Source: Heliocidaris erythrogramma
Taxonomy: Eukaryota > Echinodermata > Echinoidea > Camarodonta > Echinometridae
NCBI GenBank assembly: GCA_025617745.1
Contig: CM046869.1
Span: forward strand, 18,182,994-18,246,993
Length of the DNA stretch: 64,000 nucleotides
Direction: 5' to 3'
The position numbers and the translations under genes are program-made. How positions within the stretch are numbered: position 1 is the stretch's first letter; each line of letters starts with the position of its first letter. Of this stretch, positions 3,021-64,000 are shown one piece after another. The notes under the pieces were generated by a model. That model had not been told where the DNA came from. It saw only the letters and a list, made by a program, of their open reading frames with translations, and ran no database searches.

Positions 3021-3084
3021 GTATGACTTTTACATTTTGTTTTCTTAAACCTTGTCACACGAAGATGAAATTTGTCAAGTACGG

Positions 3085-3452: not shown

Positions 3453-3527
3453 CAGTTAGTCTTTGTGGGGGTTGTACGACACATGCTCCAGCGATCTATT
3501 TCCTACAATTTCCTCCAAATTCCTGAC

Positions 3528-3670
3528 ATCAACCCTGGACCCAACACTATACCTAACGCTCCCTAACCCTCCCTAACCCTAACCCTAAATCTAACCTGAC
3601 CTGAAACTCAATTGCAACCCTAACCCTATACTGACAAAATACGTCCAGCCTGGAAGCAATGTTGAAGCAC
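3528..3670. repeat. Interspersed repeat with CTAACC-like core
   Basis: Contains CCCTGGACCCAACACTATACC, several CCCTAACCCTAACC units, then ACTGACAAAATACGTCCAGCCTGGAAGCAA. The same order (CCTGGACC-AACAC-ATACCTAAC, degenerate CTAACC units, TTTGACGAAATAAAGCCTGGAGCAA) recurs at 9636-9760 and 35880-36110, and in part on the other strand at 20325-20400 and 41218-41290. It is a dispersed repeat family and not a telomere. Confidence 0.7.
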
Positions 3671-4451
3671 CGAGTGGGGATTGCTGAGGAATCCTATACA
3701 TGTATGTTCTACTATTTACTGAGAACTGACCCTTTTTTTTTTCCTAGTGATGACTGTGTGGAACAAAACCCTTGGCCCCTCTTACCCTCTTACCTCTTGG
3801 CATTGTCTGGTCATCGGATAAACGTGCTTTAATGCTATGGGCTGCTCTATGTCTTACTCATTGAGTGTAAAGGCCTAATTTTGATATTTTGCCATATTGG
3901 GGGGGGGGGGGCATTTATAATTTTCTCGTCTGTTTTTATTTCTATGAAGTACATGTATTACTGGAATACAATACAAGAGCCATTTCTAGTTATAACTATG
4001 TATTTAGTCTGCTAACTTCAGATTTCATTTTAGTTGATACATTGAAAGTTGGCTAGAGTTAACCCGGGTAGCTGGCAAAATACATGTATTGAACATGTAT
4101 TGGATATGTTGAACATAAATTGAAAATATTGAGAGTATATTGAAATCATGGAAGAAATGAGTATCATTCACTTATAATGATGGAAAGAATTTGTATATGA
4201 CAGATGTTTGACATGTATATGAGTAATTCATTGACATTGTGAGCAATTTCATAAAATGTCAGGATTTGGGTGAATTTGGCATCTAATTGCAGGCGCAGTG
4301 TGTAATTGTAAACCAAATAGGGTATTTTGCGCATGATTGACGCTATTCATTTGATGGATTGAAGCCACTCATTTTTGATGGATCGTGTGAGGCTTAGGAT
4401 TAAGAGATTGACACATGTCAAGTCTAGTCATGCTACTTATCAACAGGTGTG

Positions 4452-4455
<4 letters not shown>

Positions 4456-4492
<37 letters not shown>

Positions 4493-4770
4493 AGGGATGG
4501 TGGAGATGAAGAGTTAGGAAGAGAGAGAGAGAGAGAGAGGGGGAAGGGTGGGGGAGATGAAGAGGTAGGAAGAGAGAGAGAGAGAGAGAGATGGGGAGGG
4601 GTGGGGGAGATGAAGAGGTAGGAAGAGAGAGAGAGAGAGAGGGGGGGGGGGAGATGAAGAGGTAGGAAGAGAGAGAGAGAGAGAGGGGGAGGGGTGGGGG
4701 AGATGAAGAGGTAGGAAGAGAGGGAGGGGGAGAGAGATGAAGAGGTAGGAAGAGAGAGAGAGAGAGAGGG
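4456..4770. repeat. Purine minisatellite of GAGATGAAGAGGTAGGAAGAG units
   Basis: About six units, each made of GAGATGAAGAGGTAGGAAGAG followed by (GA)n and a G-run, start near 4502, 4554, 4607, 4651, 4699 and 4735 with a period of 44-53 bp. Length differences come from the GA and G runs. Open frames on either strand are strings of Arg/Glu or Leu/Ser and are not genes. Confidence 0.9.
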
Positions 4771-5850
4771 GAGAGAGGTATGGTAGGTGTACACAGAGTA
4801 AAGGATGGAGATAGAGAGAAAAGGAAAGGGAGATATAGAAAGAGATCAAGTTGAAAGCAATGTTGAAAGGTAGAATAGATAACCCAGTTTGATGATGATA
4901 GCAACGGAGGGAGGACAGGACGATATGGATATAGAAGATTATGAATTTTACATCTGCCAAACGATGTCATGTTATAGAGTGATGGACAGCTGTGGGTCAA
5001 TCCTACCTAGTGATATAGGGAGAGAGAAATAGAGAGGAGAAAAAAAGGGAGATAGAAGTCCATTCATGTACTCTTTGTATCTGCAAGGTACATGTAGGCA
5101 TCAATTTGTGGTAATTTCTTTGAAAAGCAGAATATTTGATTGAACACTAAGGAGGGTAAATGAATAATTTACATGTAGTATCTTTCTGTCTTTATTTTTT
5201 TTTTCTTAGCCACTCAAAGAGTTTATGCTTTATGAACCTTTTTCTTAGCAGACCTTGTTTTTTTAGTGTTCTTTTTATCTACATTCTGCCTACCTTATAC
5301 CCTTAGCCAACAAAAGCGACAACATAATGAATAAAATTTTTCATTACACCCAATGGCCAAGAAGGTCAATTTGTAATCAGTTTGGAGTCGATTTTCCCAG
5401 TGTGACTGAAGGATTAATGTCCACTGCCGAGCCATCTCCATATGCAGTGACCAGTGCAGTTAGTCCGTGCTTGTATATATAGAAGGGAAGTTCACGTCAA
5501 AATAGATGAAAATAATTTCAGTGCCAACTACCTCCCTCTTCCTATGAGATTCCTGTGCTCCGATCTAGAAGTTTTAAAAATAGACCAGGGGACCTGGGCT
5601 TCATTTTTAACACTTTGGTATGCCTATGAAAGAGAAGGTCAAGTCCTGGGAAAGGTGCAAATTGTCGGTGAGGTTTATTTTTTTGTGATTGGTCCCCCTC
5701 AATGGCCTCGTCCAGACCACTGTTTTTGTTATATTGCAGCAAAGCTGTATCTACATGTAAGAGTGTTACAGAAGATTCCTTTGTTCCCATCAAGGAATTA
5801 GAGCTAAATTGTTTTCTTTAGGAATCCCCCCCTTGAAACTTCCTCAGTAG

Positions 5851-6131
5851 TACAGTCTAACCTGCTGTAATGACCACCTGGACAGAAATACCACCTGTCC
5901 ATATAGGCCATATGTCTATTTAGACCATATTTTTTGTTTCCCTGGAAACAGGCCTGACTGTAAACATGTGTTAGAGTGTACCTGTGTGTAAAGAAACTGT
6001 TTTCCCCCCATGAAGCAAGTGTTTCTCCTTTAAACATTTGTTAGTGGAAACCTCTATGTAAAAACCCTCTGCCAATAATGATCACGTTTTGCGTCTCCCT
6101 TGAGTGGTCTTTCTGTACAGGTTAGACTGTA
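5851..6131. mobile_element. Small inverted-repeat element, TACAGTCTAACCTG family
   Basis: A 281 bp element whose two ends are exact inverted copies of TACAGTCTAACCTG. Inside are words typical of the family: GACCACCTG, ACCACCTGTCCATATAGG and GAGTGGTCTTTCTGTACAGG. Related, more decayed copies lie at 11872-11935, 19849-20112, 23560-23730, 24917-25073 and 25254-25330. It has no coding capacity, so it is a MITE-like passenger. Its right end is 44 bp from the PDZ exon at 6176, so it occupies the branch-point region of that intron. Confidence 0.8.
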
Positions 6132-6175
6132 CAGACAGCATTCTATTGTCAGGAATTATTTTTTCTTTAATCCAG

Positions 6176-6281
6176 GGAGCCAAGCAGAGTCCTCAGGCCT
6201 GCTGAAAGGAGATTACTTCCTTGAGATCGGTGGCTACAATGTGGCAGGCATCAACAGCAGGGGGATCAAAAATGTCCTCAA
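6176..6281 (+). CDS. rgs3: RGS3-like exon: second half of PDZ domain
   Basis: A 106 bp exon between AATCCAG and CTCAA|GTAAGT. It finishes the split Gly codon and reads GSQAESSGLLKGDYFLEIGG, then YNVAGINSRGIKNVLK. AESSGLLKGDYFLEIGG is the standard PDZ core (A-x-x-aGL-x-GD-x-i-x-x-ing) and GINSRGIKNVLK is the alpha-B helix that lines the peptide groove. It leaves two bases of a Lys codon, completed by the first base at 6995. Confidence 0.88.
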
Positions 6282-6994
6282 GTAAGTCAAAGTTCTTCCA
6301 GGGAGTACTCCATCTAATGATGTTATCTCAATAAAAAGCATTAATCCTCCTTATACAACTGCCAGTCTTGAGTGATAGGCTGCATAGCCCCTTGAAGATA
6401 ATGAGTAGAAGAATATAAAGAAGAAGAAGAATTTTAAAGTTTGTATTGCATCTACATAACAATCCACAAGTTATTCTTTAAAACAAACCAACCAGTCAAA
6501 ATTCATGTAAAACAGTGTTTAACAACAAGAAAAGTCATTGATGGATATGAGACTTCATTGAAAAGCAGACAAGGAAATAGACATATTGAATTGTCTAATA
6601 GAATTTAAGTCTTAAGAGGATTTCATTTTCATTTTTTAACCCATTTCCAAAGGGTTTGAGCTTCCTCAGGTTCTGCATACATTGTGTTCAATCCTCAATG
6701 TGCCAATGGTGCAGTTCTGTACCGAATCTCACTAAAATTCCATCATACAGTATTTTGTCTGACATAGAAGGAATTAAAGCAAACTTATGTGTGTAAGATT
6801 TATCCATTCTTCGGTCTTAATTGTTTCCTTGGTCTTGATACTTTCCTCAACATCTGAATCCGTCTTGTGAAAATGCATGTACAGTGTATATACATAACAC
6901 CACAATTATTCATAGAGAGACTTATGTTTAAAGCTTTTGAACTGAACATTATTAAATTTTCCATGTATTGTACTTTTATCTTGTGTAACTGCAG
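6282..6994 (+). other. Intron between PDZ and central exon
   Basis: A 713 bp GT-AG intron, AT-rich, with a GAAGAAGAA run near 6418 and nothing else of note. Its T-rich end and CTGCAG acceptor lead into the large central exon. An open frame runs upstream through the acceptor into the intron from 6867, but the exon phase and the acceptor place the coding start at 6995. Confidence 0.75.
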
Positions 6995-9227
6995 GCAAAC
7001 GAACAATGAGATTGAAGCCTTGGTGCAGCGTCATTCTGACCCCACCACCAGACCCGCAATCCCCCCTCGGCCCTCCAAGCCGCGGCGCAAGCACCGAGAT
7101 GGGGAGAAGGAGGAAGAAATCAAGCGCAACCTGCGCAATAGAAGGCTCAAGTCAAGTGTCAAGGCCTCTGCGGCCAAAGCAACAGCCATGATGCAAAAGA
7201 GAGGGGTGGTGCTGTCAGTTCCTGCAGGATCTTCCGCGACTGTACCTTCCATCGGACTTGTCCAGAAGCGATTGAAGCGGGAACTCATCGCTACGGTCGC
7301 TAGGAGACGAGACCGGATGGTGGTGCTGAGTGAGGAGGATCAGCTATTGATGGAGGCTGTCTTTCTTGGAGCGGAGAAGAAGGATGAGGGTTCGTTAGGA
7401 GAGAGGAACGGACCTGAGGGGAGATGGTCAAGCAGTACGGAGGCAGTGACCACAGAGAGCAGAGACGATGTCTATATGCAGCCAGAGGGTGCTTCCTCAT
7501 CCTCATCCTCCAGGGAATCAATGGTCAGCTCGATACGTGATTCCTTCAGTGAGTCGCTCAGAGATTCTGCAAGGATTTCCATCAGAGATTCCATCCCTGA
7601 GGGAGCTGGTATCACCATCTCAAGTACCCAACGTGATTCTCTACGAGATTCGCTGAGGATATCCTCACTGAGGAATTCATTCCAAGAAGCAACAAGAGAA
7701 TTCCTGAAGAATCCTCCCCAGGAGAGTCCAGGAGGATCTTCAAGGAATTCTCTGCAGGAAGCGATGAGCGTGCCACCGAGAAGCAATTCTGAAGCAGCTA
7801 AAGAGTCTGATGACTCCACTAAGAAATCAACCACTGTCTATGAGAATGCATGGATCATGATGCCGAGGAAGAGCCAAAAGGAAGAGAGCACCATCTACGA
7901 GAAAGCCAACTGTTTCTGCTCAACATGTCCTTCTGTTCCACCGAGATCACCTATCAGGAAACTATCTGATGATTTCTCCCACCAAATAATTGTTCAGCCT
8001 AAACTGCCAAAGAGATGGAGTCCTGATGGTGAAGCTACATTGAATGTCAATGTACAAGATGGTGGAAATGGGTTACAAAAAATGCCTCAGAGTGGAAAGA
8101 AACTGGCCAAGTCTAGTATGTCCCTTAGTGAACTTGATGGAAGCATGAACAACTCCCTGAAGTCTTCTTTGTCAGAGAAGCAGCTGTCCAAACCACCAGT
8201 CATTTCGCAGCGTAAAGGAAGCCTACCCCATCTGCGGAATTCGAGCTCCTATGATAAGCATCTTTCAGCATCTTCCATGGCAATAGGTGAGCTGGACAGG
8301 AAAGAAAGCAGCAGCCTCTTGAAACCATCGCAGTCTGATAGGCACCTGGCAAAACCTCCTGCAGTTGCACCTCGCAAAACGAGTTTGCCCCAGCTGATAA
8401 AGTCAAGCTCTTATGACAATCAGCTAAGCTCATCAACTATGACCATTGGAGAACTGGGAGAGACTACTACAAGGAAAGACATGAAGGCCTCATTCTCTGA
8501 AAGGCAAATTTCAAGATCTCCACCAATAACGGCACGTAAAACCAGTTTGCCCCAGCTTTTCAAGTCAAACTCTTATGACAATCAGCTAAGCTCATCAACT
8601 ATGACCATTGGGGAACTGGGAGAGATTACTACAAGGAAAGACATGAAGGCCTCATTCTCTGAAAGGCAAATTGCAAGATCTCCACCAATAACGGCACGTA
8701 AAACCAGTTTGCCCCAGCTTTTCAAGTCAAATTCTTATGATGACCATCTTGCATCATCTGCTATGTCAATCGGGGAACTGAGCGGGCACAGTCCAGGAAA
8801 GATAAAGCCACGCATCGCAGAGCGGCGGCTGGCCAAAGTGGCGCCTATTAAACGAGAAACATTCAGGAGCAAGTCTGAAGACATCCTCGATGGCAACACC
8901 TTTCGTGACCCCCACTCGGCAGCGGAGGACCTCTATGCAAATCAGCACATCATGAAGAAGGGAAAGAGCCAATCCTTTGCTGCACTGTCACGCTCACTCC
9001 GCCGCGAGAAGGCGAAGGCGAAGGCCAAACCTCCAGTGCCCCCAAGACATTATGTCAATGAAAGGATTGGAGGTCGGCCTAAGGAGAATGCCAATGGAAT
9101 GAGTACCCGTAGCATCCCTGATGATTACCATGGCGACGATGATGAAGAGGACGGTAGTACCAAGATGAGATGCTCTTTTGCCCAGTTTGGTAGGATGGAG
9201 GAGGTGCTATTTGCCAAAGGACTAGAG
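6995..9227 (+). CDS. rgs3: RGS3-like central exon: Ser/Arg/Pro-rich scaffold with 54-residue tandem repeats
   Basis: A 2233 bp exon between CTGCAG and CTAGAG|GTAAAT, in phase with both neighbours (745 codons counting the split Lys). It opens QTNNEIEALVQRHSDPTTRP, the end of the PDZ domain and the exit linker. Four [IV]PPR stretches fit the SH3 ligand pattern PxxPxR: PAIPPR near the start, two VPPRS (one in PSVPPRSP), and PPVPPRH near the end. Two repeat zones are seen: an RDS-rich zone (7510-7770) and five 53-54 residue tandem units (about 8100-8790) with the core SYDxxLxSSxMxIGEL and ARKTSLPQL. The end is acidic (HGDDDEEDG). I know of no named domain here. It is probably a disordered, phosphorylatable docking region placed between PDZ and PH-like domains. 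Confidence 0.85.
7510..7770 (+). repeat. RDS-rich short protein repeat within central exon
   Basis: The codons here spell repeated SxRDS(F/L/I) units, for example SSIRDSFSESLRDSARISIR and TQRDSLRDSLRISSLRNSFQ, spaced roughly every 7-9 residues. RxxS/RDS spacing would suit basophilic kinases or a helical phospho-array, but that is only inference. Confidence 0.65.
8100..8790 (+). repeat. Tandem 162-bp coding repeats (54 residues), five units
   Basis: Matching words fall at 8244, 8406 (AGCTCCTATG / AGCTCTTATG) and again at 8401, 8563 and 8725 (AGTCAAGCTC, AGTCAAACTC, AGTCAAATTC), exactly 162 bp apart. The first unit (about 8112 against 8271) is one codon shorter. Units 3 and 4 are nearly identical at the DNA level and units 1 and 5 are diverged, the pattern expected from recent unequal exchange in the middle of the array. 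Each unit carries SYDxxL, SS(T/A)M(T/S/A)IGEL, a (S)ERQ(I/L) turn and ARKTSLPQL. Confidence 0.9.
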
Positions 9228-9857
9228 GTAAATGCATGTAAATGCATGTAAATGCATGTAACTGCATGTAACTTGGGTAAAAATAATTGCATGTAACTTG
9301 GGTAAAAATAAGTACATAAGTACCTCACATTTATCTTTCTCTGTTCACATTTTCATATCAAGTAATTATATATGCAAAGGACTCTCCATCACTTTATTCG
9401 TATGTTCAGCCAACTACACCCTATGTGATCCTGCTACAAAAGTACTGTTTACTCATGTAGAATCTTCCTGATAAAGGTTTTAAATGGTCAATATTGTAAA
9501 ATTTGAATTATTTTATTATTGTAGGCCTTCCAGTTTGAGGAAAAGCAAAATTTTGATATCTATGTATTAAAGTTACCAAAGATTCAAATGGAAAATCATG
9601 CTTTCTTGATGATTGTTAGAAAGAAAAGAAGGTTGTTGGATAAATACTATACCTAACTCTTACCCTAAACCTTAACCTAAACTGAAACCCAATTGCAGTC
9701 CTAATCCTAACCCCCACCTTTGACAAGATAAAGCCTGGAACAGTTGATGCCGGAACATATGTTGGAGTGTTGAAAAATTGAAAGAGCATCCTGACCTTTA
9801 TAATATGACATTTTCTCTCATCTTGATCTTCTCCATCTTCCTTCCTTTTCTCCATAG
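9228..9857 (+). other. Intron before PH-like exon 1, with AATGCATGTA tandem and CTAACC repeat
   Basis: A 630 bp GT-AG intron. It opens with four or five AATGCATGTA repeats and two copies of ACTTGGGTAAAAATAA (9228-9312), which begin at the splice donor itself. A second copy of the CTAACC-core dispersed repeat lies at 9636-9760. Confidence 0.75.
9636..9760. repeat. CTAACC-core dispersed repeat, copy 2
   Basis: ATACTATACCTAACTCTTACCC, degenerate CTAACC units, then TTTGACAAGATAAAGCCTGGAACAGTTGATGCCGGAACA. Same order and orientation as the copies at 3528 and 35880. Confidence 0.7.
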
Positions 9858-9941
9858 CCCTTCCCACTTGGTCCCCCTGATCGAGACCTGGTCCATGCGG
9901 GTAGACTGTTCTTCTTTAACAGGCGCAAGAAGTTCAGAGAG
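9858..9941 (+). CDS. rgs3: RGS3-like exon: start of PH-like domain
   Basis: An 84 bp, 28-codon exon between TCCATAG and AGAGAG|GTAAGT, phase 0 at both ends. It encodes PFPLGPPDRDLVHAGRLFFF followed by NRRKKFRE. LVHAGRLFF is the usual first strand of a PH domain (L-x-x-G-x-L) and the NRRKKFRE turn supplies basic residues where PH domains bind phosphoinositides. The next exon continues straight into the third strand. Confidence 0.8.
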
Positions 9942-11110
9942 GTAAGTCATCCGTGTTGTAGGTTTGGAGTCACTCCTTACACCTCTCATTAATATTTAGA
10001 GCTGTGGTAATGAGAGTTGCTTTTTAAAGGCCAAGTCCACCTCAATATCAAGTTGATTTGAATAAACAGAGTAAAATTAAACAAGCATAACAGTAAAAAT
10101 TTCACTGAAATCGGATGTAACATAAGAAAGTTTTGCATTATTTCATGAAACAGTGATATGCATAGCATGGGCGGTATGCAAATGAGTGAACCGATGATGT
10201 CACACACTCACTTTTCCTTATGTATTTTATTATATGAAATTTCAAATATTTCAATTTTTATAGATGTGATAATAAAGAATCCCTTCCTTGTATGAAAATA
10301 AGTTACAATAATGAGGATTTTACATGTTCCATATGGAGTCAAACCATGTTTTACATTATTGAAGCAAAAAAATGAAATATATGATATTTCATATAATAAA
10401 ATACATAAGGAAAAGTGAGTGCATGACATCATCGGTTCACTCATTTGCATACCACCCATGTTATGCATATCACTGTTTCATGAAATAATGCAAAATTTCA
10501 AAATGCCATAACTTTCTTATTTTACATCTGATTTCAGTGAAATTTTTACTGTTATGCTTGTTCAATTTTACTCTGTTTATTCAAATGAACTTGATATTGA
10601 GGTGGACTTGGCCTTTAATAGAAAATGCTTTAAAAGGTGTTGCTGTGTTGTGTGTAAGAGTGCCCCTCCCTTCTATTCCTGATGCAGGCGCGGGTTCAGG
10701 GGAAACACTTTATTCCTCAGATAAAAATGTAAACTGGAGGTGTAGGAGAGTCACATGCTATGCATGTTGATATCCTACACTTCTTGAACAGGGTTGAATG
10801 GAAACCTAGTCTTTAGTGTACCTGTACAACACAACAGGTAATCTTGAGTTCATCTTTGTGGTAGCCTTCATAGCCCTTTGAAGAGAAGAACTTGACTTAA
10901 GACCGAGCTTAAACCCGACCGTCCGGTTTAATATTTTTAATAGAATACCAAATTATGGTTTGTAGCTGCTGTATACATAAGTACATTTATGTAGCAGTTG
11001 CTTCCATACAGTTTCTTTCACAATGTAATCTTATGACCTAAACTCAATATAATCTACATGTATAACTGCCACCTTAAAAAGACATGGACTTATTCCCTTT
11101 CTGCTCTCAG
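9942..11110 (+). other. Intron between PH-like exons 1 and 2
   Basis: A 1169 bp GT-AG intron, half of it a 595 bp fold-back element (10024-10618). A tail of dispersed repeat family B (AGTTTCTTTCACAATGTAATC) is seen near 11010. Confidence 0.75.
10024..10618. mobile_element. 595-bp fold-back element with long inverted arms
   Basis: The ends are inverted copies beginning TTAAAGGCCAAGTCCACC. The terminal 31 bases match exactly and the arms stay near-identical for over 200 bp each, through GCATAACAGTAAAAATTTCA, TGAAACAGTGATATGCATA and GTATGCAAATGAGTGAACCG. About 130 bp separate the arms. No transposase is present. This kind of long-arm MITE is familiar to me from marine deuterostome genomes. Open frames inside it are mirror images from the two arms. 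Confidence 0.88.
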
Positions 11111-11240
11111 GTCTTGGTACTTCTCTTCAATGACGCCCTTGTGATGGCACGCTCCCAGCATCAAGATGGCCGCTTACGTGTGATCTTTCCACAACTGCTC
11201 ATCCTGAACATCAGCCTTCTCAACTTCAACTGTGAGAATG
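11111..11240 (+). CDS. rgs3: RGS3-like exon: middle of PH-like domain
   Basis: A 130 bp exon between TGCTCTCAG and GAATG|GTGGGT. It encodes VLVLLFNDALVMARSQHQDG and then RLRVIFPQLLILNISLLNFNCEN, leaving one base of a split Ala codon. VLVLLFNDALVMA is the third-strand signature of PH domains in RhoGEF and RGS3-type proteins (aLFnDlLlla). RGS3 has a PH-like segment at this place, with the equivalent strand FAYSDLLLFTK, supporting the assignment. Confidence 0.85.
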
Positions 11241-26330: not shown

Positions 26331-26366
26331 CAATCCCCCAACCCTTAAAACGAGCTGTGACCTTTT

Positions 26367-26783
26367 ATGAACTTTACCATTAGCCTGTCTGCTGCCAGAC
26401 CGACTGTCCAAATTCATCAAAACACAATAAATTCCGGAGACAAATTTGCCTCCGCCGACTTTGTGTTAGGCCGTGGTGCTAATACCAGCGTGATTATAGT
26501 CCTAAGATGCGAGAGATGCGATATTAATAATGTCAACTCTCGCCGTGCCGGTTTGGTGATGAGCTTCACGGAAAGCGATGATGCAAGCTTGGGGTTTGAC
26601 CTTTGCCACATCCAAAGCACTTCTCCTGCATTGTTAAAAAGCAATTTTCGTGATGAAGATCGGATACTCGGCATGATCCGAGGAGAGCAAGAGAGAGATG
26701 AGAGGAAGAGGCACGTGTGTGAGTGTCATAAAACAAAGGAACTCTTTGAGGCGAAGAGGCTTTTGAAGCAGAAGCAATGCTAG
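26367..26783 (+). other. 138-codon open frame in a unique-sequence island, status unknown
   Basis: An open frame with ATG at 26367 and stop after KRLLKQKQC. It is less AT-rich than the flanks and free of the repeats catalogued here. The peptide has a basic, Glu/Lys-rich C-terminal third (EQERDERKRHVCECHKTKEL) and no domain I recognise. A second open frame overlaps on the minus strand at 26417-26674. A regulatory island or chance frame is as likely as a gene. Confidence 0.2.
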
Positions 26784-53777: not shown

Positions 53778-53946
53778 ATTTACTGCAATAAATCATATAT
53801 ACCCACCTATTATGCCTGTAGTCTTGACTACGGGACCCCTTCGAGAATTATCTCACATGTGTCACAAAATTGTGCGCACCCCCCGTAATCCTATTGTCCC
53901 CTTTGCCACTCACGCGCGTCAGTACGCTACGGCCATCTTCCTCTTT
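53778..53946 (+). repeat. DIRS left inverted terminal repeat
   Basis: Bases 53796-53946 are the exact inverted copy of 59762-59912. The outer 18 bp (ATTTACTGCAATAAATCA) resemble but do not equal the right end, which is longer by about 23 bp. This inequality, with the right terminal repeat longer, is also described for the Dictyostelium DIRS-1 element. The open frame here that begins MPVVLTTGPLRELSH also appears on the minus strand at the other end; it is repeat sequence and not a gene. Confidence 0.95.
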
Positions 53947-54039
53947 CTTGCTCGCCCCCGACGAGTTAGGACGTATTGTCACAGCGCTCCTGAAATCAGG
54001 TCGTATAGTATCTTTTTGGTGCGCTTTTTCACATAGTTA

Positions 54040-54363
54040 AAGCACTTTTAGGTACCTATATTCGTTTAGATTATAGTACTTTGTGTTTTATTAGTCACTC
54101 TTGCCGATTGCAAGGGATTTTTTGATTCCCTTTCTTGGCATTTTTGTTTCTCTTTTACGGTCAGCCCCACGTAGATATTTCTGTGTTTGCGGGTGTTTCC
54201 GTTTGTCACCGAGCCTTCGGGTTCGGTGTTTGTTCTTACGGTTTGGCTGTTAAAATTTCTGTTGTGCGTATCTCCCAAATAAACTTTAGTTTAGTTTCTG
54301 CATTCAGTTGAAGTATCTCTTAATTTGAAAAGTATACTTTATTGTCTGTTTTATTGCAGAGGT
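54040..54363 (+). promoter_or_regulatory. DIRS 5-prime leader ending in a splice-acceptor-like site
   Basis: Between the left terminal repeat and ORF1 lies about 400 bp without a long frame. It ends with GTCTGTTTTATTGCAG directly before AGGTATG, with the ORF1 start codon at 54364. The T-rich tract plus CAG looks like a 3-prime splice site, and introns have been reported in some DIRS elements. No donor was settled. A promoter is expected in the terminal repeat but I see no firm core motif. Confidence 0.4.
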
Positions 54364-56625
54364 ATGAATTCGGAAGAAGAAGCAGCTGGGTCGAGGAGAC
54401 CTGCTTCTTCCGAAGAGTTGTCTAGCAAGACGACTCGGCCTTCCAGAACTCCCCCGAGTACAGCGGTACGCGGGGGAGGGAGGAGGGCCAAAGGTAAGTT
54501 GCCTAGTGGTGTTTCCTTGCAGAGTTTGCCAGTCTCGGAGCTTGCGGCTTCGGGACGGGTGGCGTTAACTGAATCGGGATTGTCAACTCCGAAGCCTGTG
54601 GTTTCGGGGTGGGTGGCGTCAGATTCTAGTGGTTTGGATATCTGGAGAGAATCCAATCCCCCGGTCGCGGAGACCAGAGGGGGGGCTGTTGTTTCCCGTA
54701 CGGTAGCGTTCACTCGCTCTGATCCGTTAGGGGAGACGCGCCCCACTACTGCAGGGCAACCCACAGGCTTAGTCCATGTTGGTCTGGGTCCTCAAACCCT
54801 AGCCCCCGGCAAACGCCATATGGGGGAACGAGTACTTTCTGGGCTGTCTCAGTTGCCAGCTGATGGGAATGCTCGAGCTAACAATTATGGACGCTCTTCG
54901 GAGCAACAGGTGTTTTCACCTGAGTGCGTGACTACTAGTGCTCCCCTATTGCCGCTTTCGAGCGGTCCAATAGCGGGTTCGCACGTCGTTAGTAGTCATC
55001 GGGCACATACTGAGTTTTCTCGGTCTGTCCACGCACTGGGAGCTTTTAGCTCTCAACCCATGGCTTCGGCATCTTCTTGCCTAGCTAATATGGGTGTTTT
55101 GGATGATTCTCAAGGCTCACGCCATGAGCGCTCCAATCCCTTTACGGGAAGTGAACGTCCCTCCGCGGAGGGATCGGTTCGTGTTTCCGAAGTGGCTTCG
55201 GAGATCCGAATGAATCCGATCAAGCGTTCTAACAAAAGGGTTTCGGCTACGACTCTTGTCGAGCCAGCCAAGAAAAAGGCCAAGAAGAAGGCGAAAAGAG
55301 GCAAGGCTTTGCCGACCTCTCGCCCGTCTGGTCTGGCTGACCCAGCTAGCTCCTCTCAAACTGACATGTTCAGTGTGATGCGGGCTTTTGCTCAGAGTCA
55401 TGGTTGGGCCTTTGTACCGGCTTCCTCAACCCTGACTTCTGTCCCTATTCAGGGATCTCGCTTTGAGGCTGATCAACCCTTTGTGATTGATTCCTCTTTG
55501 TCTGAGACTGATTCGCATGTGCATCCTATTCCCGCGGCCCTTGGGGCTCCGCCGGGCGAGGAGACTGTTGGTGAACCATGCGAGGAACTGCCTGCGGAGG
55601 CCTTTGTTAACGTTCCTTTGTCTCATTCCACTCGAGTGGAACCAGATTTTGATGCGTCCTCTCAAGCCTCGGTCCCCGAATCGCTTGGGCAGGCGGAGTC
55701 TCAATCGCTCAATCTCTGTGGAGTGGAAGCGATTGCTTTGTTATCCAAATATCGCCCTGAAGTTCAGTCAACCCGCGCGCAGGGTTCGACTTCGCATTGG
55801 AATTTCAATCAGCATGCCTCCCCCGAGGGTATTGTTCTCGAGGAGGCTTTCAAGCTGGAGTATGACCGCATTGAGGCTGCCGTGTTGGTTAAGCGTTCAA
55901 ATGCGGTCAGGGGTAGGGCTTTTGCCTTTTGTTCTCAGGACCAAGACAGCTTTTTCAAGGCTAAGGTTCTTTCTCCTGAGATTTTGGAGGTCGGTCGTCG
56001 CTTGCGGGCGACTAATCCGCTTACCTCCGCTGCTTTCAAGGCGGAGGATAAGGTTTGGTCGAATGTTGAAAACCACATTAGATCTGGGATGCGTTTGACG
56101 GCCTTTCAAGGGCTTCTCTCCGACCTTAGGTCCAGGGCGGAGGAGTTGAATGTTACCGATGGTGACAAGCTGATTATTGACGACTTGCTGCATACTCTCT
56201 TTTGTCTGCAGTGGTCGCAGCTTTCCACGGCAGCTGCTTCGGCTACGTTCCGTCGCAGGACCTCGGCTCTCTCAGCACTGGGTGTTAGAGAGTCGGGCAT
56301 TGCTCAACTTCTCCGAGATGTTCCGTCTCGGGGTCCTTCGCTTTTTGGCGGTAAATTCGCTACGGTGTTTCAAAGAGAGATCGATGCGCGGAAGCAGATC
56401 TCGGATATGACTAAGCAGTTTCACACTAGCTCTAAGCCAACGCGGGCCCCTGTTCGGCGTAAACCTGCTGGTCCTGTTGTGGGCCAACGCAGTCGTGTGT
56501 CTAGGGTCCCGCCTCCTGAACCTCAGCCAGCTCCGTCTCGTGGGAGAGGGAGTCGTGGCAGGGGTTTTTCGAGAGGTTCTCGTGGAAAGGCGATGGCTTC
56601 TCAGAAGGCCAAGCCTGGCTTTTGA
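54364..56625 (+). CDS. DIRS ORF1, Gag-like protein
   Basis: 753 residues if started at the ATG at 54364 (MNSEEEAAGSRRP); an in-frame ATG 39 bp upstream lies before the acceptor-like site and is less likely. It is Ser/Pro-rich in the first half, with a lysine-rich nuclear-signal-like stretch (AKKKAKKKAKRGK, near residue 300). The second half has a conserved-looking helical region (about residues 455-660) and ends in an Arg/Gly tail (SRGRGSRGRGFSRGSRGK) of the sort that binds RNA. DIRS ORF1 proteins are taken as Gag equivalents that package RNA; no zinc knuckle is seen. The stop TGA overlaps ORF2 by 149 bp and is discussed as a possible +1 shift site. Confidence 0.88.
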   Translation: MNSEEEAAGSRRPASSEELSSKTTRPSRTPPSTAVRGGGRRAKGKLPSGVSLQSLPVSELAASGRVALTESGLSTPKPVVSGWVASDSSGLDIWRESNPPVAETRGGAVVSRTVAFTRSDPLGETRPTTAGQPTGLVHVGLGPQTLAPGKRHMGERVLSGLSQLPADGNARANNYGRSSEQQVFSPECVTTSAPLLPLSSGPIAGSHVVSSHRAHTEFSRSVHALGAFSSQPMASASSCLANMGVLDDSQGSRHERSNPFTGSERPSAEGSVRVSEVASEIRMNPIKRSNKRVSATTLVEPAKKKAKKKAKRGKALPTSRPSGLADPASSSQTDMFSVMRAFAQSHGWAFVPASSTLTSVPIQGSRFEADQPFVIDSSLSETDSHVHPIPAALGAPPGEETVGEPCEELPAEAFVNVPLSHSTRVEPDFDASSQASVPESLGQAESQSLNLCGVEAIALLSKYRPEVQSTRAQGSTSHWNFNQHASPEGIVLEEAFKLEYDRIEAAVLVKRSNAVRGRAFAFCSQDQDSFFKAKVLSPEILEVGRRLRATNPLTSAAFKAEDKVWSNVENHIRSGMRLTAFQGLLSDLRSRAEELNVTDGDKLIIDDLLHTLFCLQWSQLSTAAASATFRRRTSALSALGVRESGIAQLLRDVPSRGPSLFGGKFATVFQREIDARKQISDMTKQFHTSSKPTRAPVRRKPAGPVVGQRSRVSRVPPPEPQPAPSRGRGSRGRGFSRGSRGKAMASQKAKPGF

Positions 56626-58576
56626 CGTGCTTCCCCGAGCGCTGGTTCAACCGATTGTGGTAGGTGGCCGACTTCGTGCGTTTCTCCCCGCTTGGGAGGC
56701 CATCTCCGGGGACGGGTTTGTTCTCTCCGTCGTGCGAGACGGATTCTTCATAGAACTTTGCGCCTCGCTCCCCGGAGGGGCTATAAGAATTCGGTCACCT
56801 CCCATGTCTGCCCTGTCTCGGTCTCATGCTTTGAAGGAGATCGAGTCTCTTTTGGAAAAGAGGGCTATAGAAAGGGTAAGAGACAGGCCGTCTCTCTCCC
56901 TTTCTCCAATTTTTGTTATTCCCAAGCGCTCGGGAAAACTTCGTTTGATACTGAACCTAAAGAGGATAAACAAATTTATTCCTCCGGTTCATTTTCGTAT
57001 GGAGACTCTTGCCTCCATTCTTCCGTTGATCAAAAGGGAAGACTACGCGGTCTCGATAGATCTCAAGGACGCGTACTTCCACATTCCCATTCATCGCGCA
57101 TCTCGCGATCTTCTGGGGTTCTCCTTCCTCTCGGAGACTTACCGGTTTCGGGCTCTTCCCTTTGGGCTGCGCCCGGCCCCTCGGGTTTTTACTCGAGTTG
57201 TAGCGGTGCTAGCGGCCTTTCTGAGGCGTCGCGGCCTGCGGTTGTTTTGTTACCTGGACGATTGGCTTCTCCTTGCGGAGTCGCGCGATCGTTTGTTGGA
57301 CGAGACTCGTTTGTTGGTCTCTCTTACTCAAGACTTAGGTTTCCTAATAAATTGGGAAAAGTCAGAGTTAGTCCCCACTCGCAACCCAGTTTTTCTGGGG
57401 GCGGTGTTGGACATAAGGAATCAGTTAGCTCGACCCAGTCGAGACAGGATTCTCACCATTGTCTCTGCGGCTCGCAAACTCTTGCTGGCCAGAAGAGTCT
57501 CGGCCAGACAGTGGCTTCAGTTCCTAGGTTATCTGGCCAGTCTAGTCGATGTTTTAGAGGACTGCCGGCTCCTCATGAGACCCTTTCAGAGACATCTCCT
57601 CAGGTTCTTCAAACCGGGAAAAGACTCTCTTTCGGTCTGGGTTCCAGTTCCAGTAGAGATCAAGTCTCTTCTCGCTTGTTGGACGAGCGAGGTGTTTCTC
57701 GCGCGAGGCAGGTCCTTCTCTGTCCCTCTTCCGTCGATATCGGTTTCGACGGACGCCTCTCGGTTGGGGTGGGGAGGACACTGCAACGGCAGCACGGTTG
57801 CGGGGGATTGGTCTCATCTTGGGACTCTTCCTCACATCAATGTCCTGGAGTTTATGGCAGTTCTGCTGACCTTGCTCCATTTCAGAAGTCGACTGCTCAG
57901 TCGTTCAGTTCTGATTCTCACGGACAATGTTACCGTGGCGGCATATATCAATCGGCAGGGAGGCACTCGTTCGGTTGCCCTGAATGCCCTAGCAGCTCAG
58001 CTGTGGAGGTGGTGTCGTCGCATGGCAATCACACCTGTGGCCTCTTTCATCCCAGGTCGGGAAAACCTTATTGCGGATTTTCTGTCCCGGGGCAGGTATC
58101 TTCCTTCGGAATGGATGCTCCATCCGGAGGTATTTTGCCGCATTTGCACTTGCCTAGGTCCACTGGAAGTGGATCTATTTGCGTCAGTGCTAAATCACCA
58201 GCTGCCGAAGTATTGCTCCCGTGTTCGCGATCAGGGAGCATGGGCTCTCGATGCTTTCTCCCTCAGCTGGGAGAACCTTCAGGGATTCGCCTTTCCTCCC
58301 TTCCAACTGATTCCGCGTGTCTTGCGGAAAATCAGGGAAGATCGGGCGAGGGTGCTTGTGATAGCTCCCTTTTGGCCCAGGAGGAATTGGTTTCCGGAGC
58401 TTATGAGCCTTCTACGGGCTCAACCGTTAGTTCTCCCGTTAAGAGCGGATCTGGTGTTACAGCCCCTATCGGGGATTCTTCACCACAATCCGGAGTCTCT
58501 TCATTTGACTGCTTGGCCCCTGTCAGGGAATCTGCAAGACAGTCGGGTCTCTCTGATAGAGCCGCGGACTTTTTAA
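56477..58576 (+). CDS. DIRS ORF2: reverse transcriptase, RNase H and methyltransferase-like domain
   Basis: Open from at least 56477, but recognisable sequence starts at about 56624 just past the ORF1 stop (FDVLPRALVQ). From 56477, the RT spans about residues 100-400: PIFVIPKRSGKLRLILNLKR, motif A SIDLKDAYFHI (about 191), LPFGL and the catalytic YLDD box (about 259-262). RNase H follows with STDASRLGWGG (about 424), the Glu in NVLEFMAVL, LTDNVTVAAYIN (about 480) and ENLIADFLSR (about 530). The last 150 residues have VDLFASVLNHQLPKYCS, DAFSLSW, FPPFQLIPRVLRKI and LVIAPFWPRRNWFPE, the DIRS domain described as related to N6-adenine methyltransferases; its activity is not shown. All RT catalytic aspartates are present. 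It copies the element RNA into DNA. The stop is TAA in TAATG, shared with the recombinase start. Confidence 0.93.
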   Translation: MWANAVVCLGSRLLNLSQLRLVGEGVVAGVFREVLVERRWLLRRPSLAFDVLPRALVQPIVVGGRLRAFLPAWEAISGDGFVLSVVRDGFFIELCASLPGGAIRIRSPPMSALSRSHALKEIESLLEKRAIERVRDRPSLSLSPIFVIPKRSGKLRLILNLKRINKFIPPVHFRMETLASILPLIKREDYAVSIDLKDAYFHIPIHRASRDLLGFSFLSETYRFRALPFGLRPAPRVFTRVVAVLAAFLRRRGLRLFCYLDDWLLLAESRDRLLDETRLLVSLTQDLGFLINWEKSELVPTRNPVFLGAVLDIRNQLARPSRDRILTIVSAARKLLLARRVSARQWLQFLGYLASLVDVLEDCRLLMRPFQRHLLRFFKPGKDSLSVWVPVPVEIKSLLACWTSEVFLARGRSFSVPLPSISVSTDASRLGWGGHCNGSTVAGDWSHLGTLPHINVLEFMAVLLTLLHFRSRLLSRSVLILTDNVTVAAYINRQGGTRSVALNALAAQLWRWCRRMAITPVASFIPGRENLIADFLSRGRYLPSEWMLHPEVFCRICTCLGPLEVDLFASVLNHQLPKYCSRVRDQGAWALDAFSLSWENLQGFAFPPFQLIPRVLRKIREDRARVLVIAPFWPRRNWFPELMSLLRAQPLVLPLRADLVLQPLSGILHHNPESLHLTAWPLSGNLQDSRVSLIEPRTF

Positions 58577-59550
58577 TGTCCAGTCGTAGACTTTCTACTA
58601 GGGAAATTTACAATTCCCGTCTCTCGGTCTTTTTCCTTTGGTGTAAAGAGAGAAATCAAACCCCTTCTAAGGCTCCTATTGGTTCAATTGCGGATTTCTT
58701 AATCTCGTTATTTGACAAAGGGAGATCTATTTCTACTATCCGAGGCTACCGTTCGGCGATCGGGGCCATTCATTCGGGTTTTTCGGATGGTTCGGGGATT
58801 TCCAATTCCCCGCTGCTAAGCGGTTTGATTCGTTCGTTCTTTCTGAAACGACCTTCGTTTTCTAGGTTAGTGCCGTCTTGGAGTCTGCCTAAGGTCCTGG
58901 AGGCCTTGGCGAAACCTCCTTTTGAACCGTTAGGTGAAGCTTCGCTTCATCATCTTACGGTTAAGACGCTCTTTTTGGTAGCTATTGCCTCTGGGCAGAG
59001 GCGCAGTACTCTTCACGCTCTCTGTCTTACTCCTGGTCACGTTCGCTGGGAGAGAAAAGGTGTTAGATTGATTCCTAGGGCTTCTTTTGTCGCCAAGAAT
59101 CAGACAGCTACCTCCGGTCCTGTTGAGATTTTTCTTTGTCCGCTTTCTGACTTTTCTTCGGTGCGTGAGGACAAAGTTTGGTGTCCTGTTAGGGCTCTCA
59201 AATGGTATATTGATAAGACTAAGTCTTTTCGTAAGGATGATCAGTTGTTCTTGATCACTAGAGAGCCTTTTTCTCCTGCCTCTCTTGATTCCATTTCTAG
59301 ATGGATCGTTGAGGCTATTAGGGCCGCTGGCACAGAGGCTCTTTTATCCGACAGTAAGCCTCGTGCTCATGATACTCGTAGTGTCAGCACTTCTTGGGCT
59401 CTGTTTCAAGGTGTGGCGCTTGTTGATATTTTGAAGGCTGCTTATTGGCGTTCGCCCAATTCCTTCATTTCTTGCTACCTTAGGGATATTCCCGCAGGTG
59501 AAGCTTTGTTTGCGTCAGCCACCTTGAAGGCCGCTGTGTCTTCTTTGTAG
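58576..59550 (+). CDS. DIRS tyrosine recombinase (integrase)
   Basis: 324 residues from an ATG at 58576 that shares its A with the ORF2 stop. The N-terminal SAM-like DNA-binding domain reads SSRRLSTREIYNSRLSVFFL and SISTIRGYRSAIGAIHSGF. The catalytic part has the first Arg in SGQRRSTLHAL (about 58999), the second-box HDTR (His 59368, Arg 59377) and the nucleophile Tyr in SFISCYLRDI (59476), with a Trp just upstream (AYWRSPNS) at the usual H/W position. It should insert the circular element DNA by strand exchange, explaining the missing target duplication. The same frame stays open upstream to 56692 across most of ORF2; that part looks like the shadow of the RT frame. Intact by eye. Confidence 0.92.
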   Translation: MSSRRLSTREIYNSRLSVFFLWCKERNQTPSKAPIGSIADFLISLFDKGRSISTIRGYRSAIGAIHSGFSDGSGISNSPLLSGLIRSFFLKRPSFSRLVPSWSLPKVLEALAKPPFEPLGEASLHHLTVKTLFLVAIASGQRRSTLHALCLTPGHVRWERKGVRLIPRASFVAKNQTATSGPVEIFLCPLSDFSSVREDKVWCPVRALKWYIDKTKSFRKDDQLFLITREPFSPASLDSISRWIVEAIRAAGTEALLSDSKPRAHDTRSVSTSWALFQGVALVDILKAAYWRSPNSFISCYLRDIPAGEALFASATLKAAVSSL

Positions 59551-59607
59551 TAATCCTATTTCCTTTGCTGGAAACATGCCTCCCGGTTTTTGAGTTTGCG
59601 CTGGTCT

Positions 59608-59702
59608 GGCATAATAGGTGGGTATATATGATTTATTGCAGTAAATTTGTAAAATCAACACTGATTTTCTTATTTACTATATAAATCTATATACCCACCT
59701 AT
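59608..59702. repeat. DIRS internal complementary region (ICR)
   Basis: Bases 59608-59646 are the inverted copy of the left end (53778-53816), and 59647-59702 are the inverted copy of the right end (59898-59953). The join GCAGTAAAT|TTGTAAAATC therefore spells the ligated outer ends. In the accepted DIRS model this region templates completion of both ends and brings them together for circle formation. Confidence 0.95.
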
Positions 59703-59761
59703 GACCCTCCCTCCTTCCCCGCTCCTTGCAAGCAACATGTTTCTTCTTGGGGTTGCTCGCA

Positions 59762-59953
59762 AAAGAGGAAGATGGCCGTAGCGTACTGACGCGCGTGAGT
59801 GGCAAAGGGGACAATAGGATTACGGGGGGTGCGCACAATTTTGTGACACATGTGAGATAATTCTCGAAGGGGTCCCGTAGTCAAGACTACAGGCATAATA
59901 GGTGGGTATATAGATTTATATAGTAAATAAGAAAATCAGTGTTGATTTTACAA
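59762..59953 (-). repeat. DIRS right inverted terminal repeat
   Basis: Inverted partner of 53796-53946 across 59762-59912, plus a 41 bp outer extension (59913-59953) with no full counterpart on the left end but present in the ICR. Confidence 0.95.
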
Positions 59954-60549
59954 TTTTGTACAATGATTCTATGGCCATACCATAGTTAAACAGTAGATTT
60001 TTGTTGAATTTCATGTAATGATGTAGTCAAAAGGAGGTCTTGGCATTCTTATCTAGAGAACTCACTAAAGAATTTTAAGAATCAAAAACTCATTAAAGAA
60101 TTCAGATTCGAAGGACACTTACCTTTAAATGTTTGAAATGAAGCTCGAAAGCTGTTGATTAATGTGCCTTGATGGTATGGCTTCTTCATGCTTTTTTTTC
60201 TTGTATCTTATGGTAAAAAAGAAGCCATTGGAACATAATGAATTGCTAAGCATAGAAGCTCGGAATTTGTAAGCAAATTATTATAATCCGAAACTGTTCT
60301 GTACGTAATTGTTCCCTGTCTATCAACTAGAAGTTCTGAGAAGATAATGAGTATTCACTGTTTCGTGTAATATTCCTGTCTGTACATATTTATTCCATGT
60401 CCATCAACTCAAAGTTCTGAGAAGATATTGACAATTCATTCAGAGTCTGCTTCCAGTGGTAAAAAGAGAAAAAGAAAGAAAAAAACGAGACGCTAGAAAT
60501 CATGGTCTTTTTGGGTTGTTATAACAGCCATTCTCTGCTTCTGTTTCAG

Positions 60550-60694
60550 GGAAAGTACCATGCAGGAAACCTTTGAATTTCGTGGTTTCTCATCTTTGGG
60601 CTAGACGATAATCCAGATCATATACCAGCATGCTTTCAAAGAACAGTTCGAAATATTTTGATTTTATGTTTTCATGAGCAACTGATATAATCCT
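60550..60694 (+). other. Possible 5-prime part of the next exon, or isoform leader
   Basis: A strong acceptor (TTCTCTGCTTCTGTTTCAG, ending 60549) precedes sequence with stops in the frame of the following ORF at 60602 and 60683. Entered in phase 0 from the PH-like exon it would read GKYHAGNL and stop. So either this is the untranslated start of an exon whose coding begins at an ATG (60695, 60731 or 60824), or the long isoform uses a later acceptor. No decision is possible from sequence. Confidence 0.45.
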
Positions 60695-62194
60695 ATGAGA
60701 GCGAGCTGCTTCCCTTGTGACATAACTTTGATGAGATTCCTGGAAAACAAAAACAAAGAAGATTTGACCGATGCGGTTTTCACTGTTGTCCATAAAGCAC
60801 ATGTTAGGCTAGTGAAATTCAGGATGGATAACCCAAGTAACCCAAGTAACCCAAGTGATAATAAACTTCTTGGTGAGGGCAGTGTGGTGCCTGAAGCTAG
60901 TGGACCAATGGAAATTCTAAAAGTGCAAACCTGTGAAGGCCTGTACCGGAAGGGGAATGATTGTGAGAGCACAGCTGAGGATCATGATTCCTGCTCGGAC
61001 ACAGGTGGTTTCCAAGTAGAGACCAGTGCAATAAGGTCTGTAGCAGGGGAGCTAGAGAAGGGCTTGGTAAAGACATCAAGCTGTTCATGCTGCAGTCAGG
61101 GGGTCAGTAGCTGTTGTGTCTCCACCTGTTGCAGTCTAGAGGCCTTCTGCCAAAAACTTGTGGAACGCATTGTGATTCAAGCAATAATGGATTATAAGGG
61201 ACAGTGTGGTAATGAAAATGACAAAGGCATTACCGACACCCAACTGAAAGAGAACACTGTTATATGCCCCGTGTTTGATGGCTCAAGAAGTTTTAAAACT
61301 GAGGCTGACAATAGAGAAAACAATACATCTGTCGGACATCATAAAGTGAGTTCAGAGGTAGTCTATTTAGAACAACTACAACCTCTTAGTGATCCTGACA
61401 GGACAATAGATCAACAGGTGTGGCATTCTGAACACTCTGTAACAAGCAAAGACCAGTCACTGGATAAGAATAAGAATTGTTGCAAACTAAACATAGACAA
61501 GGCTCAAACAGCAGGACCAGATGGTTCTGGTGTAATAGTACAAGAAAGGCCGAAGCAAGAAAGTTGTGAAGTGGCAATGATGGACTATACAGAAGCTCAA
61601 AGTATATCTGAGGAATTACCTGATGGAACAATGTGTGTGATAATCGACCATAATGTGGGTGAGACTGATACAGATACTCCAGGAAAATCCTTAAGTCCTG
61701 TGAAAGCTGAAGAAGTACCTGACCAAGACCTTGTTCCACAAGACCAAGGGGCTATAAGCAGTATTACATGCATGGGCACAACTGACGGTGATCACCACCC
61801 GGAAACAATTCATGCAATATGGGTACCAGAGGCTAAAGTAGAGTATATTAGCGTAAGTTCTGATGGCATCTCAACTTGTAGAGATGAACAGTATTCCTCT
61901 TTAGACATAGAGACTGGTCCAGAATTTCCTTTCCAGGTCGCGCAGGACAGGAAACTCCATCTTAATAAAGAGCCTGAGACTTGTAAGACTTCCGATGACT
62001 TGGTCAATGTGCATGCCCCTGTCCCATTGGTGAGACCGGAGGATTTATTTGACAAGGATTTAAGTGTGGATATACCAGATATTGGGCATGATGAAACGGG
62101 AGAAGACTGTGTTGGTGATAACCTTCTTGGAGATATCAGTGGAATATTACACAGAGAACCCCACCCAGAATCAGAGCCAAAGGTCAACACAATG
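60695..62194 (+). CDS. Large acidic coding exon with Cys cluster and AKAP-like helix, probably RGS3 locus
   Basis: 500 codons open from ATG 60695 to an excellent ATG|GTAAGA donor after 62194, phase 0; the frame runs on only 24 codons beyond. The true start is uncertain: MRASCFPCDITLMRFLENKN is not an obvious N-terminus and ATG 60824 (MDNPSNPSNPSDN, in a CAGGATGG context) is also possible. The protein is acidic and rich in Ser, Asp and Glu. A Cys cluster (SSCSCCSQGVSSCCVSTCC, about residues 129-147) runs into FCQKLVERIVIQAIMDYKGQ (about 151-170), matching the amphipathic L-x(3)-IV-x(2)-AI helix that docks PKA RII subunits in A-kinase anchoring proteins. Long RGS3 isoforms have a large acidic linker between PH-like and RGS parts, and shorter isoforms start inside it, so this placement is likely but unproven. 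A separate AKAP-type gene is the alternative. Confidence 0.6.
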
Positions 62195-64000
62195 GTAAGA
62201 AGTGAAATGTGTTGTCAGTTTCTTTGGAGTGTAATCTGGATTTCTGTTTAATCTTGATAAAAGTTATTGTGCCTCAAAAATTTCATGGCTATATTGTGCG
62301 CAATCTGATAGTGTCCATATTTGTGCTTGTACCTCATCTGTGCCTATGGCAAGTCCAGCATTAATGTTGCTAAAGGGTCATTATCATGTCTCAAAAACGT
62401 TTTAGCCTTAATAAGCGAATCTGATGGTGTCAATATTTGTGGTGTGAAATGTGTCTGTTACAATGGCATGATATAGTAAGGGTGAAGCAGCTGAAAGAAG
62501 AAATATTCTGGTACAACTACATTCAAACCAGAAGCCATATACTAGTATTTAACATTCATATAATATTCATTCTCCGCTTTAATCATACAGTATTATATAT
62601 TTGTACTGTGTACCACGTTGTTACGAATGGCATGTCCAGCATAGGGTGATACAGGCGTGAGAGTGAACATTTTACTACACTTACATTCAAACCAAACTTC
62701 ATGTATATTTAATATCCATACAACATTCATTTGTCCAGTTTTCAGCAGATTCATACAGTATTCTGTTTGGACATACTTGTGAGAATAAACGTTATACTAC
62801 AATTATGTTCAAACCGTCCTCCATATATACATTCATACAATATTCATTCTCCAATTTTCAGCAGAATAAAATACAGTATTAATTTGTACTTCCCTGAATC
62901 TTTGATAGATAAATTTTTTTTTTTCAAGCTGTTCATGAAAAACACAGTCATGCGTTGGACATCCATGAACATGGGAGGGGGTGGGGGGTGGGGGGGGGGG
63001 GGTGTTATACTTAACTCTGTACTGGCTTTTGGGAAAAACCCTGGAGTGCCACATTGTTTGGTGGATATGATACATATACACTGTACAAGTGCCAAATTTA
63101 GTTTTGGCAGTCTCCGATTCGTTGCTTTAGTAGACCAAAGCCTCTAAAGAATTAATATTCAAGAAATTCAACCAGGATTCCCCACTTCTTGCACCAAGCC
63201 CCCTATTCCCCCTATTTCTGCATTTATTCAGAAAGAAACTTTTTGGGTACATGTCTTCCGGACATCTGTATTGTGTTGAGCCATGAAGATAAACTTGATA
63301 CTACATTCACGTCTTCTTAAAGTAGAACGTTAATGATTTTAAATATTGGCTTAATACTTATTATTGCATAGATGGCATAAATTAAACAAGGTTATCCAAA
63401 TTCAACGCTTGGAAACATTTGAAGTAATGATTATTATCAATTATAAAACGGTAAAATACAGCCCCCGATATAGCAGCTGAAGAGCTCCTCGAACGCTGCT
63501 GAGATATGTGACGACACACCCTGGACCAGTCCTGTCTAAGCAGACGATGTCCCATAACATCTTACACATTTTTCAGAGCCTATTTTGTCATCTCCTCTTC
63601 ACTTATTTCTCTTCCTTCACTAGCGTCAGTCTTAATGTTAGTCTGTTGCCTCACTCTTAACTTCGTGTATGGTATTATTTTGATGAAAAATGCAGCGTTA
63701 AAAAAATAAAGGAATCAGTCACTTGTAAACAAAATAAGACGCCATTGTATTTTCAGCTGCTTGCACCGGGGCATGTTCGGCGTTTCAAGAGGGAACGAAT
63801 ACCATCCTGCTATTATTCGGAGGGCTTTTCAATTTGAAAGTGGGGTTTATTTCATTGATCATTGACCCTTCTCCTATGTATTTACAATCAAACGGTTTTA
63901 GCTATCAGAATCAGTTTCACTTTCCCTTTATAATGGTGTGAAATAAGGTCATGTTTAAATACACCAAACTCTTTATAATTTGATAAATAATTGCATTGCA
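62195..64000 (+). other. Intron after the acidic exon, to the window end
   Basis: AT-rich, no recognisable exon. Two diverged units of about 140 bp at about 62260-62440 share TGATAGTGTCCATATTTGTG / TGATGGTGTCAATATTTGTG and AATCTGAT. Another pair near 62500-62640 and 62670-62890 shares TACA-TTCAAACC, CATACAATATTCATTCTCC and ATACAGTATT. A G-run lies at 62974-63002. The remainder shows nothing further. Confidence 0.5.

Follow-up and report, generated by a model that had tools for sequence, protein, structure and literature searches.

In its short forms, AKAP7 (AKAP18) combines an RI/RII-binding helix with lipidated cysteines, and it is the described system nearest to the locus considered here. 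The published RII consensus is LxxxAxxIVxxAIxxA, and AKAP18, which binds RII at 16 nM, is described as unique in having additional leucines, at positions 8 and 18 of its helix, according to the available part of PMC3682517. Binding to the PKA regulatory (R) subunits requires five helical turns, a glutamate at helix position 6 suffices to block it, and AKAP helices arise sporadically, as stated in the accessible portion of PMC12203939. In the available part of PMC3508976, the RII domain of AKAP7 is traced back as far as lamprey, and the AKAP7-like genes of sea urchin are described as lacking it.

PKA anchoring has also been described in proteins with RGS domains. D-AKAP2 (AKAP10) and fly Pkaap each contain two RGS domains together with a PKA-binding domain, and these RGS domains are reported as binding Rab4/Rab11 (PMC4920182, in the part available). 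The joining of RGS domains to PKA anchoring in a single protein, which the earlier note did not know from vertebrate RGS3, was thus already published. Schematic drawings show vertebrate RGS3 with a C2 domain, a PDZ domain and an RGS box, and the A/RZ RGS proteins use a cysteine string near the N terminus for membrane localisation (from the accessible sections of PMC10623796). Among the titles listed for RGS3 with A-kinase anchoring and PDZ, none was on point.

Here, we compare these systems with an exon of the sea urchin Heliocidaris erythrogramma, which lies in a 64,000-nucleotide stretch of contig CM046869.1 (the window) and encodes a candidate PKA-docking helix behind a cysteine cluster. 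Judged from the sequence, this segment may represent a docking motif of the AKAP7 type, with a neighboring cysteine cluster that is possibly palmitoylated, a tentative reading that we regard as possible rather than probable. Coordinates are listed in Table 1, and residues in the exon are counted from the Met at 60695.

Table 1. Features of the helix-encoding exon (window coordinates)
Feature	Position	Strand	Remarks
Open frame of exon	60686..62194	+	Runs to phase 0 donor; start ATG 60695, 60731 or 60824
Best nearby splice acceptor AG	60548..60549	+	Exon would begin 60550
Cysteine cluster C-x-CC-x6-CC-x3-CC	61082..61132	+	Seven Cys, Cys130-Cys146; helix follows directly
Candidate PKA R-subunit docking helix SLEAFCQKLVERIVIQAIMDYKGQ	61133..61204	+	S147-Q170, 24 residues; motif and score controls
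Splice donor GTAAGA	62195..62200	+	ACAATG/GTAAGA, consensus, phase 0; frame closes 18 codons later

The exon and the upstream PDZ gene

The exon lies in a 521-codon open frame on the + strand (60686-62251 including the stop), which ranks fifth in length among the forward frames of the window; of the four longer ones, three belong to a retroelement and one is a long exon in the upstream gene. Of the possible starts, ATG 60824 has the best context, with A at -3 and G at +4, and those at 60695 and 60731 are weaker. A perfect 9-nt tandem repeat of 3.1 copies (TAACCCAAG, 60829-60856) encodes NPSNPSNPS just after ATG 60824, and a 60-nt direct repeat is found just upstream of the exon (60298-60438) in two copies, 83% alike and 81 nt apart. 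The best nearby acceptor (CTTCTGTTTCAG/GG) has a pyrimidine-rich tract with C at -3 and ranks among the best 1% of the window's AG sites on a simple score of pyrimidine content. Most AG sites inside the frame follow poor pyrimidine tracts. At 60798 the pyrimidine fraction, 0.75, is similar to that at the acceptors of the upstream gene, but position -3 is A.

Because in-frame stops lie between the 60550 acceptor and the opening of the frame at 60686, the sequence favors the start of a separate protein, and the exon is more likely to open a coding sequence, behind a 5' untranslated stretch, than to be internal to the PDZ-PH protein. The internal acceptor 60798 may join the exon to the upstream gene. 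When codons were scored by the usage of the long upstream exon (6996-9227), the true frame obtained -21, compared with -214 and -346 for the other frames, a difference that is largely due to the stops which the other two contain; the true frame's own score is negative under this usage. Synonymous codon use of the exon correlates with that of exon 6995-9227 at 0.33 and with that of the retroelement frame at -0.21, and exon 6995-9227 and the retroelement frame correlate at 0.10. GC3 is 0.38 in this exon versus 0.50 in exon 6995-9227. The codon data, both correlation and GC3, are compatible with the exon lying inside or outside the PDZ gene. An Rfam search of the region gave no match, and a bacterial promoter scan and a repeat search within the exon region were uninformative on the helix question. 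We infer that the exon is expressed.

The upstream exons are on the same strand. When joined, those at 2936-3020, 6176-6281 and 6995-9227 encode a PDZ domain (PF00595, E=2e-6, above the cut-off), and exon 9858-9941 with the exon from 11111 encodes a PH-like fragment that stays below threshold (PH_16, 21.2 bits versus a cut-off of 22.8). Together, the PDZ and PH-like exons extend over 2936-11231 (end approximate), and the 2.2-kb exon 6995-9227 contains near-repeats of the type ARKTSLPQLFKSNSYD. A 140-codon forward frame at 26361-26780 with a charged C-terminal part (RDEDRILGMIRGEQERDERKRH...) may be a further exon; it had no Pfam match. The retroelement at 53796-59912 ends less than 1 kb upstream of the helix exon. 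It contains a reverse transcriptase frame (PF00078, E=3.7e-21), an overlapping long frame with no Pfam match in the part searched, and 151-nt inverted terminal repeats (53796-53946 and 59762-59912) that are 100% complementary, and the identity of these arms suggests a recent insertion. We take its organization to recall that of DIRS elements.

RGS3 has a PH-like part and a short form that starts in a linker exon. The earlier note took the present exon for the linker of an RGS3-like C2-PDZ-PH-RGS protein, which would place PKA anchoring in one chain with PDZ, PH and RGS. This proposal is in line with the PDZ domain and PH-like fragment upstream on the same strand, with the domains drawn for vertebrate RGS3 and with the in-frame acceptor 60798. 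However, queries with RGS3 sequences matched weakly: the two PDZ exons gave E=0.079 (exon 1) and E=16 (exon 2), the best match of the PH query (E=0.99) fell away from the PH exons, and the downstream RGS domain on which the earlier note called gave no RGS box match better than E=1.7 within the 64-kb window, the scope of that search. Compared to solved chains, the PDZ domain is closest to syntenin-1 (E=4e-11), with RGS12 at E=0.004; RGS3 is not among the best 60 of 96 solved PDZ matches, a library that may lack the RGS3 PDZ. Pfam found no C2 in ten forward ORFs before 2936, a search that could miss small exons or pre-window sequence, and gave there a single sub-threshold MRJP match (E=0.044). 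Furthermore, the frame is not continuous with the upstream exons through the best acceptor, where it runs into stops, and about 50 kb with the retroelement separate the exon from the PDZ-PH exons (the PDZ and PH fragment lie some 50-58 kb upstream). The assignment to an RGS3 linker, in frame with such a protein, is thus unlikely; the RGS3 identity of the upstream gene is unproven, and the link of the exon to that gene is still less supported by the sequence. A bolder variant holds that a short isoform of an RGS3 locus starts in the exon and continues to an RGS box outside the window; the cysteine string, with an AKAP7-like helix of independent origin, would then join PKA and the G-protein off-switch on one membrane-bound protein; we consider this very improbable.

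The candidate helix and its likeness to AKAP7

The frame 60686+3k reads ...TSSCSCCSQGVSSCCVSTCCSLEAFCQKLVERIVIQAIMDYKGQ... as far as 61204, and the helix core, L148-Y167, occupies 61136-61195. The L-x3-IV-x2-AI spacing reported in the earlier note is present in this translation, with letters and place correct. Its likening of the helix to the AKAP-IS-type pattern holds in part: strict LxxxAxxIVxxAIxxA has no match anywhere in the exon, as the helix has Cys152 at an alanine position, but the pattern matches once C or S is accepted there. With this one exception the motif fits, and the relaxed consensus has a single match in 500 residues (LEAFCQKLVERIVIQA). At least one such match occurred in 1.3% of 20,000 exon shuffles, and 555 other ORFs of the window (40,358 residues) contain 10, or 0.13 per 521 residues. 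A second RII pattern fits the helix only in a version that accepts C, and its stricter version matches residues 109-121 instead; 6-7% of shuffles match this pattern. Four of the five RII-type patterns were matched by 0.9-7% of shuffles. An AKAP7-style pattern, LV[ED]xx[IVL]xxA[IVL] (0.09% of shuffles), was devised after the helix had been seen and is excluded as evidence. The nine contact-face positions, L148, C152, L155, V156, I159, V160, A163, I164 and Y167, are all L, C, V, I, A or Y and none is charged, a 9/9 core that was reached in 470 of 20,000 exon shuffles and 98 of 20,000 local shuffles. Collectively, the motif is real and appears moderately unlikely to have arisen by chance.

Among nine AKAP helices, a resemblance beyond that of shuffles is limited to AKAP7 and, at a weak level, AKAP-IS (104 of 4,000 shuffles), while the D-AKAP2, Ht31, AKAP5 and AKAP1 helices match best elsewhere in the exon. 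Against the AKAP7 helix, the sequence of which was confirmed against PDB 4zp3, the candidate has an ungapped BLOSUM62 score of 34, with 7 of 24 residues identical. This similarity exceeds that of nearly all shuffles: a score of 34 was reached by 1 of 4,000 exon shuffles (2 of 5,000 in a separate script), by 0 of 4,000 shuffles of the local 60 residues alone, by 36 of 20,000 permutations of the 24-mer that preserve the hydrophobic and polar classes, and by none of 555 other window ORFs of at least 45 codons, the best of which scored 27. When the best of the nine helices was taken, the same z was reached by 11 of 4,000 shuffles; AKAP7 had been picked as the closest helix, a choice that the nine-helix control covers for the helices tried. 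On a PSSM built from six AKAP helices the candidate scored 9.5, less than any of the six in leave-one-out scoring (11.9-32.0); 71 of 3,000 shuffles and 2 of the 555 other ORFs did at least as well as the candidate.

The candidate resembles AKAP7/AKAP18 in the spacing of contact residues over 20 positions and, in the register that we infer, in placing hydrophobic residues, F151 and I161, at the two unusual off-face sites of AKAP18 (positions 8 and 18). It differs in that homology was undetected: BLASTP of the exon against AKAP7 gave nothing at E up to 100, Pfam at E up to 10 found no family for the exon or for its 34-aa and 71-aa fragments, and phmmer of the helix against PDB returned nothing. 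Motifs this short can escape all three kinds of search. Matches to ribosomal protein S4 (14 sequences, best E 0.56) were put down to chance. In addition, the cysteine cluster is internal here, no Gly2 for myristoylation follows any of the three candidate starts, and the RII domain of AKAP7 is reported from vertebrates only (in the part of PMC3508976 available). Since sea urchin AKAP7-like genes are described there as devoid of this domain, homology is unlikely, and a working helix at this site would therefore represent convergence.

The amphipathic character of the helix is less clear. Its hydrophobic moment is 0.13-0.20, depending on the ends chosen, and rearranging its 18 letters gave at least equal amphipathicity in 15,910 of 20,000 permutations. 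The moment is low because F151, I161 and M165 sit off the contact face. The objection is not fatal, as the AKAP7 helix itself has off-face leucines and a moment of just 0.24 in the same computation. The highest moments in the exon (0.42-0.47) belong to 18-mers that start at 140-143, towards the cysteines, and to a separate site at 110-130. AF2 without alignment predicted, for the whole exon, a longest helix at 140-171, which includes part of the cysteine cluster (mean pLDDT 31, very low confidence) and, for a 57-residue fragment, a single long helix that lies behind the cluster (148-171; mean pLDDT 59, low to moderate confidence). These models lend weak support to a lone helix at the site. The likeness to an AKAP helix seen in the earlier note thus survived the chance tests moderately, with AKAP7/AKAP18 as its nearest relative in pattern, and is weakened by the low moment.

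The cysteine cluster and competing readings of the segment

The CSCC, CC and CC groups that the earlier note placed ahead of the helix are present as stated, and an eighth cysteine, Cys152, lies inside the helix. Eight cysteines in 23 residues (Cys130-Cys152) were reached by 2 of 20,000 shuffles. The cluster is a putative targeting element for an AKAP-type complex. If the segment works as an AKAP7-like docking motif, the exon would be the first coding exon and encode an acidic, probably disordered N-terminal region, in which L148-Y167 would fold as a helix of about five turns and dock, in the register used by AKAP7/AKAP18, on the dimerisation/docking (D/D) domain of PKA regulatory subunits. 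The cysteines ahead of it would be palmitoylated and hold the segment at the membrane. The resulting layout would be a "lipid anchor plus RII helix," as in the short AKAP7 forms.

A chance likeness to RII helices is about as probable as this docking reading. In that case the helix would be hydrophobic, perhaps lying on the membrane, and would serve the cysteine cluster as a platform for palmitoylation, comparable to the cysteine string in RGS17/19/20, with which the segment shares dense cysteines in an N-terminal region (as described for the family in the accessible part of PMC10623796). The 18-mers of highest hydrophobicity in the exon fall within residues 130-157, in part an effect of a scale that treats Cys as hydrophobic, and the low moment with three hydrophobic residues off the face suits a membrane-lying helix, as the frequency of RII-type patterns in shuffles and the 10 relaxed matches in other ORFs suit a fortuitous resemblance. 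We regard this combination as a serious possibility, short of being the probable one. It has to account for an AKAP7 score that is hard to obtain by chance even when the hydrophobic and polar classes are kept, and for a helix with a net charge near neutral (-1 to 0) and without a basic patch. Such a patch is a feature of the membrane helices of RGS4-type proteins. Unlike RGS17/19/20, no RGS box match accompanies the cysteines within the window, and the order and density of the cysteines presumably differ between those proteins and this cluster.

Two other readings appear much less likely than PKA docking. The helix could have a docking partner other than PKA within the docking/dimerisation family, such as SPA17, ROPN1L or a relative of these, in the manner of the "D/D domain interacting proteins." Interactors of this kind are known and are similar to AKAP helices (PMC12203939, in the part available), and D/D proteins are widespread in metazoans (PMC8339350, likewise in part); however, no ciliary or sperm gene was recognized in the window, and five turns suit PKA R subunits, whereas DPY-30-like partners need four, according to the former source. 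We judge this quite unlikely. The cysteines could also bind metal, with the helix as a structural part of a small folded unit, for which eight cysteines within 23 residues would be suitable; the C-x-CC-x6-CC-x3-CC spacing has no CxxC pair, neither the exon nor its two fragments gave a Pfam family, and AF2 without alignment produced no confident fold, which leaves this the least likely of the readings considered.

Compared to D-AKAP2, no RGS domain is seen with the present helix. At present, the segment is a testable candidate rather than a discovery. If the helix binds PKA, it would add another anchoring protein, with a helix that converged on the AKAP7 solution, in keeping with the sporadic origin of such helices (as described in the part of PMC12203939 available). 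If it were also joined to an RGS box, it would provide a second design, besides D-AKAP2, that couples the cAMP kinase to an RGS protein.
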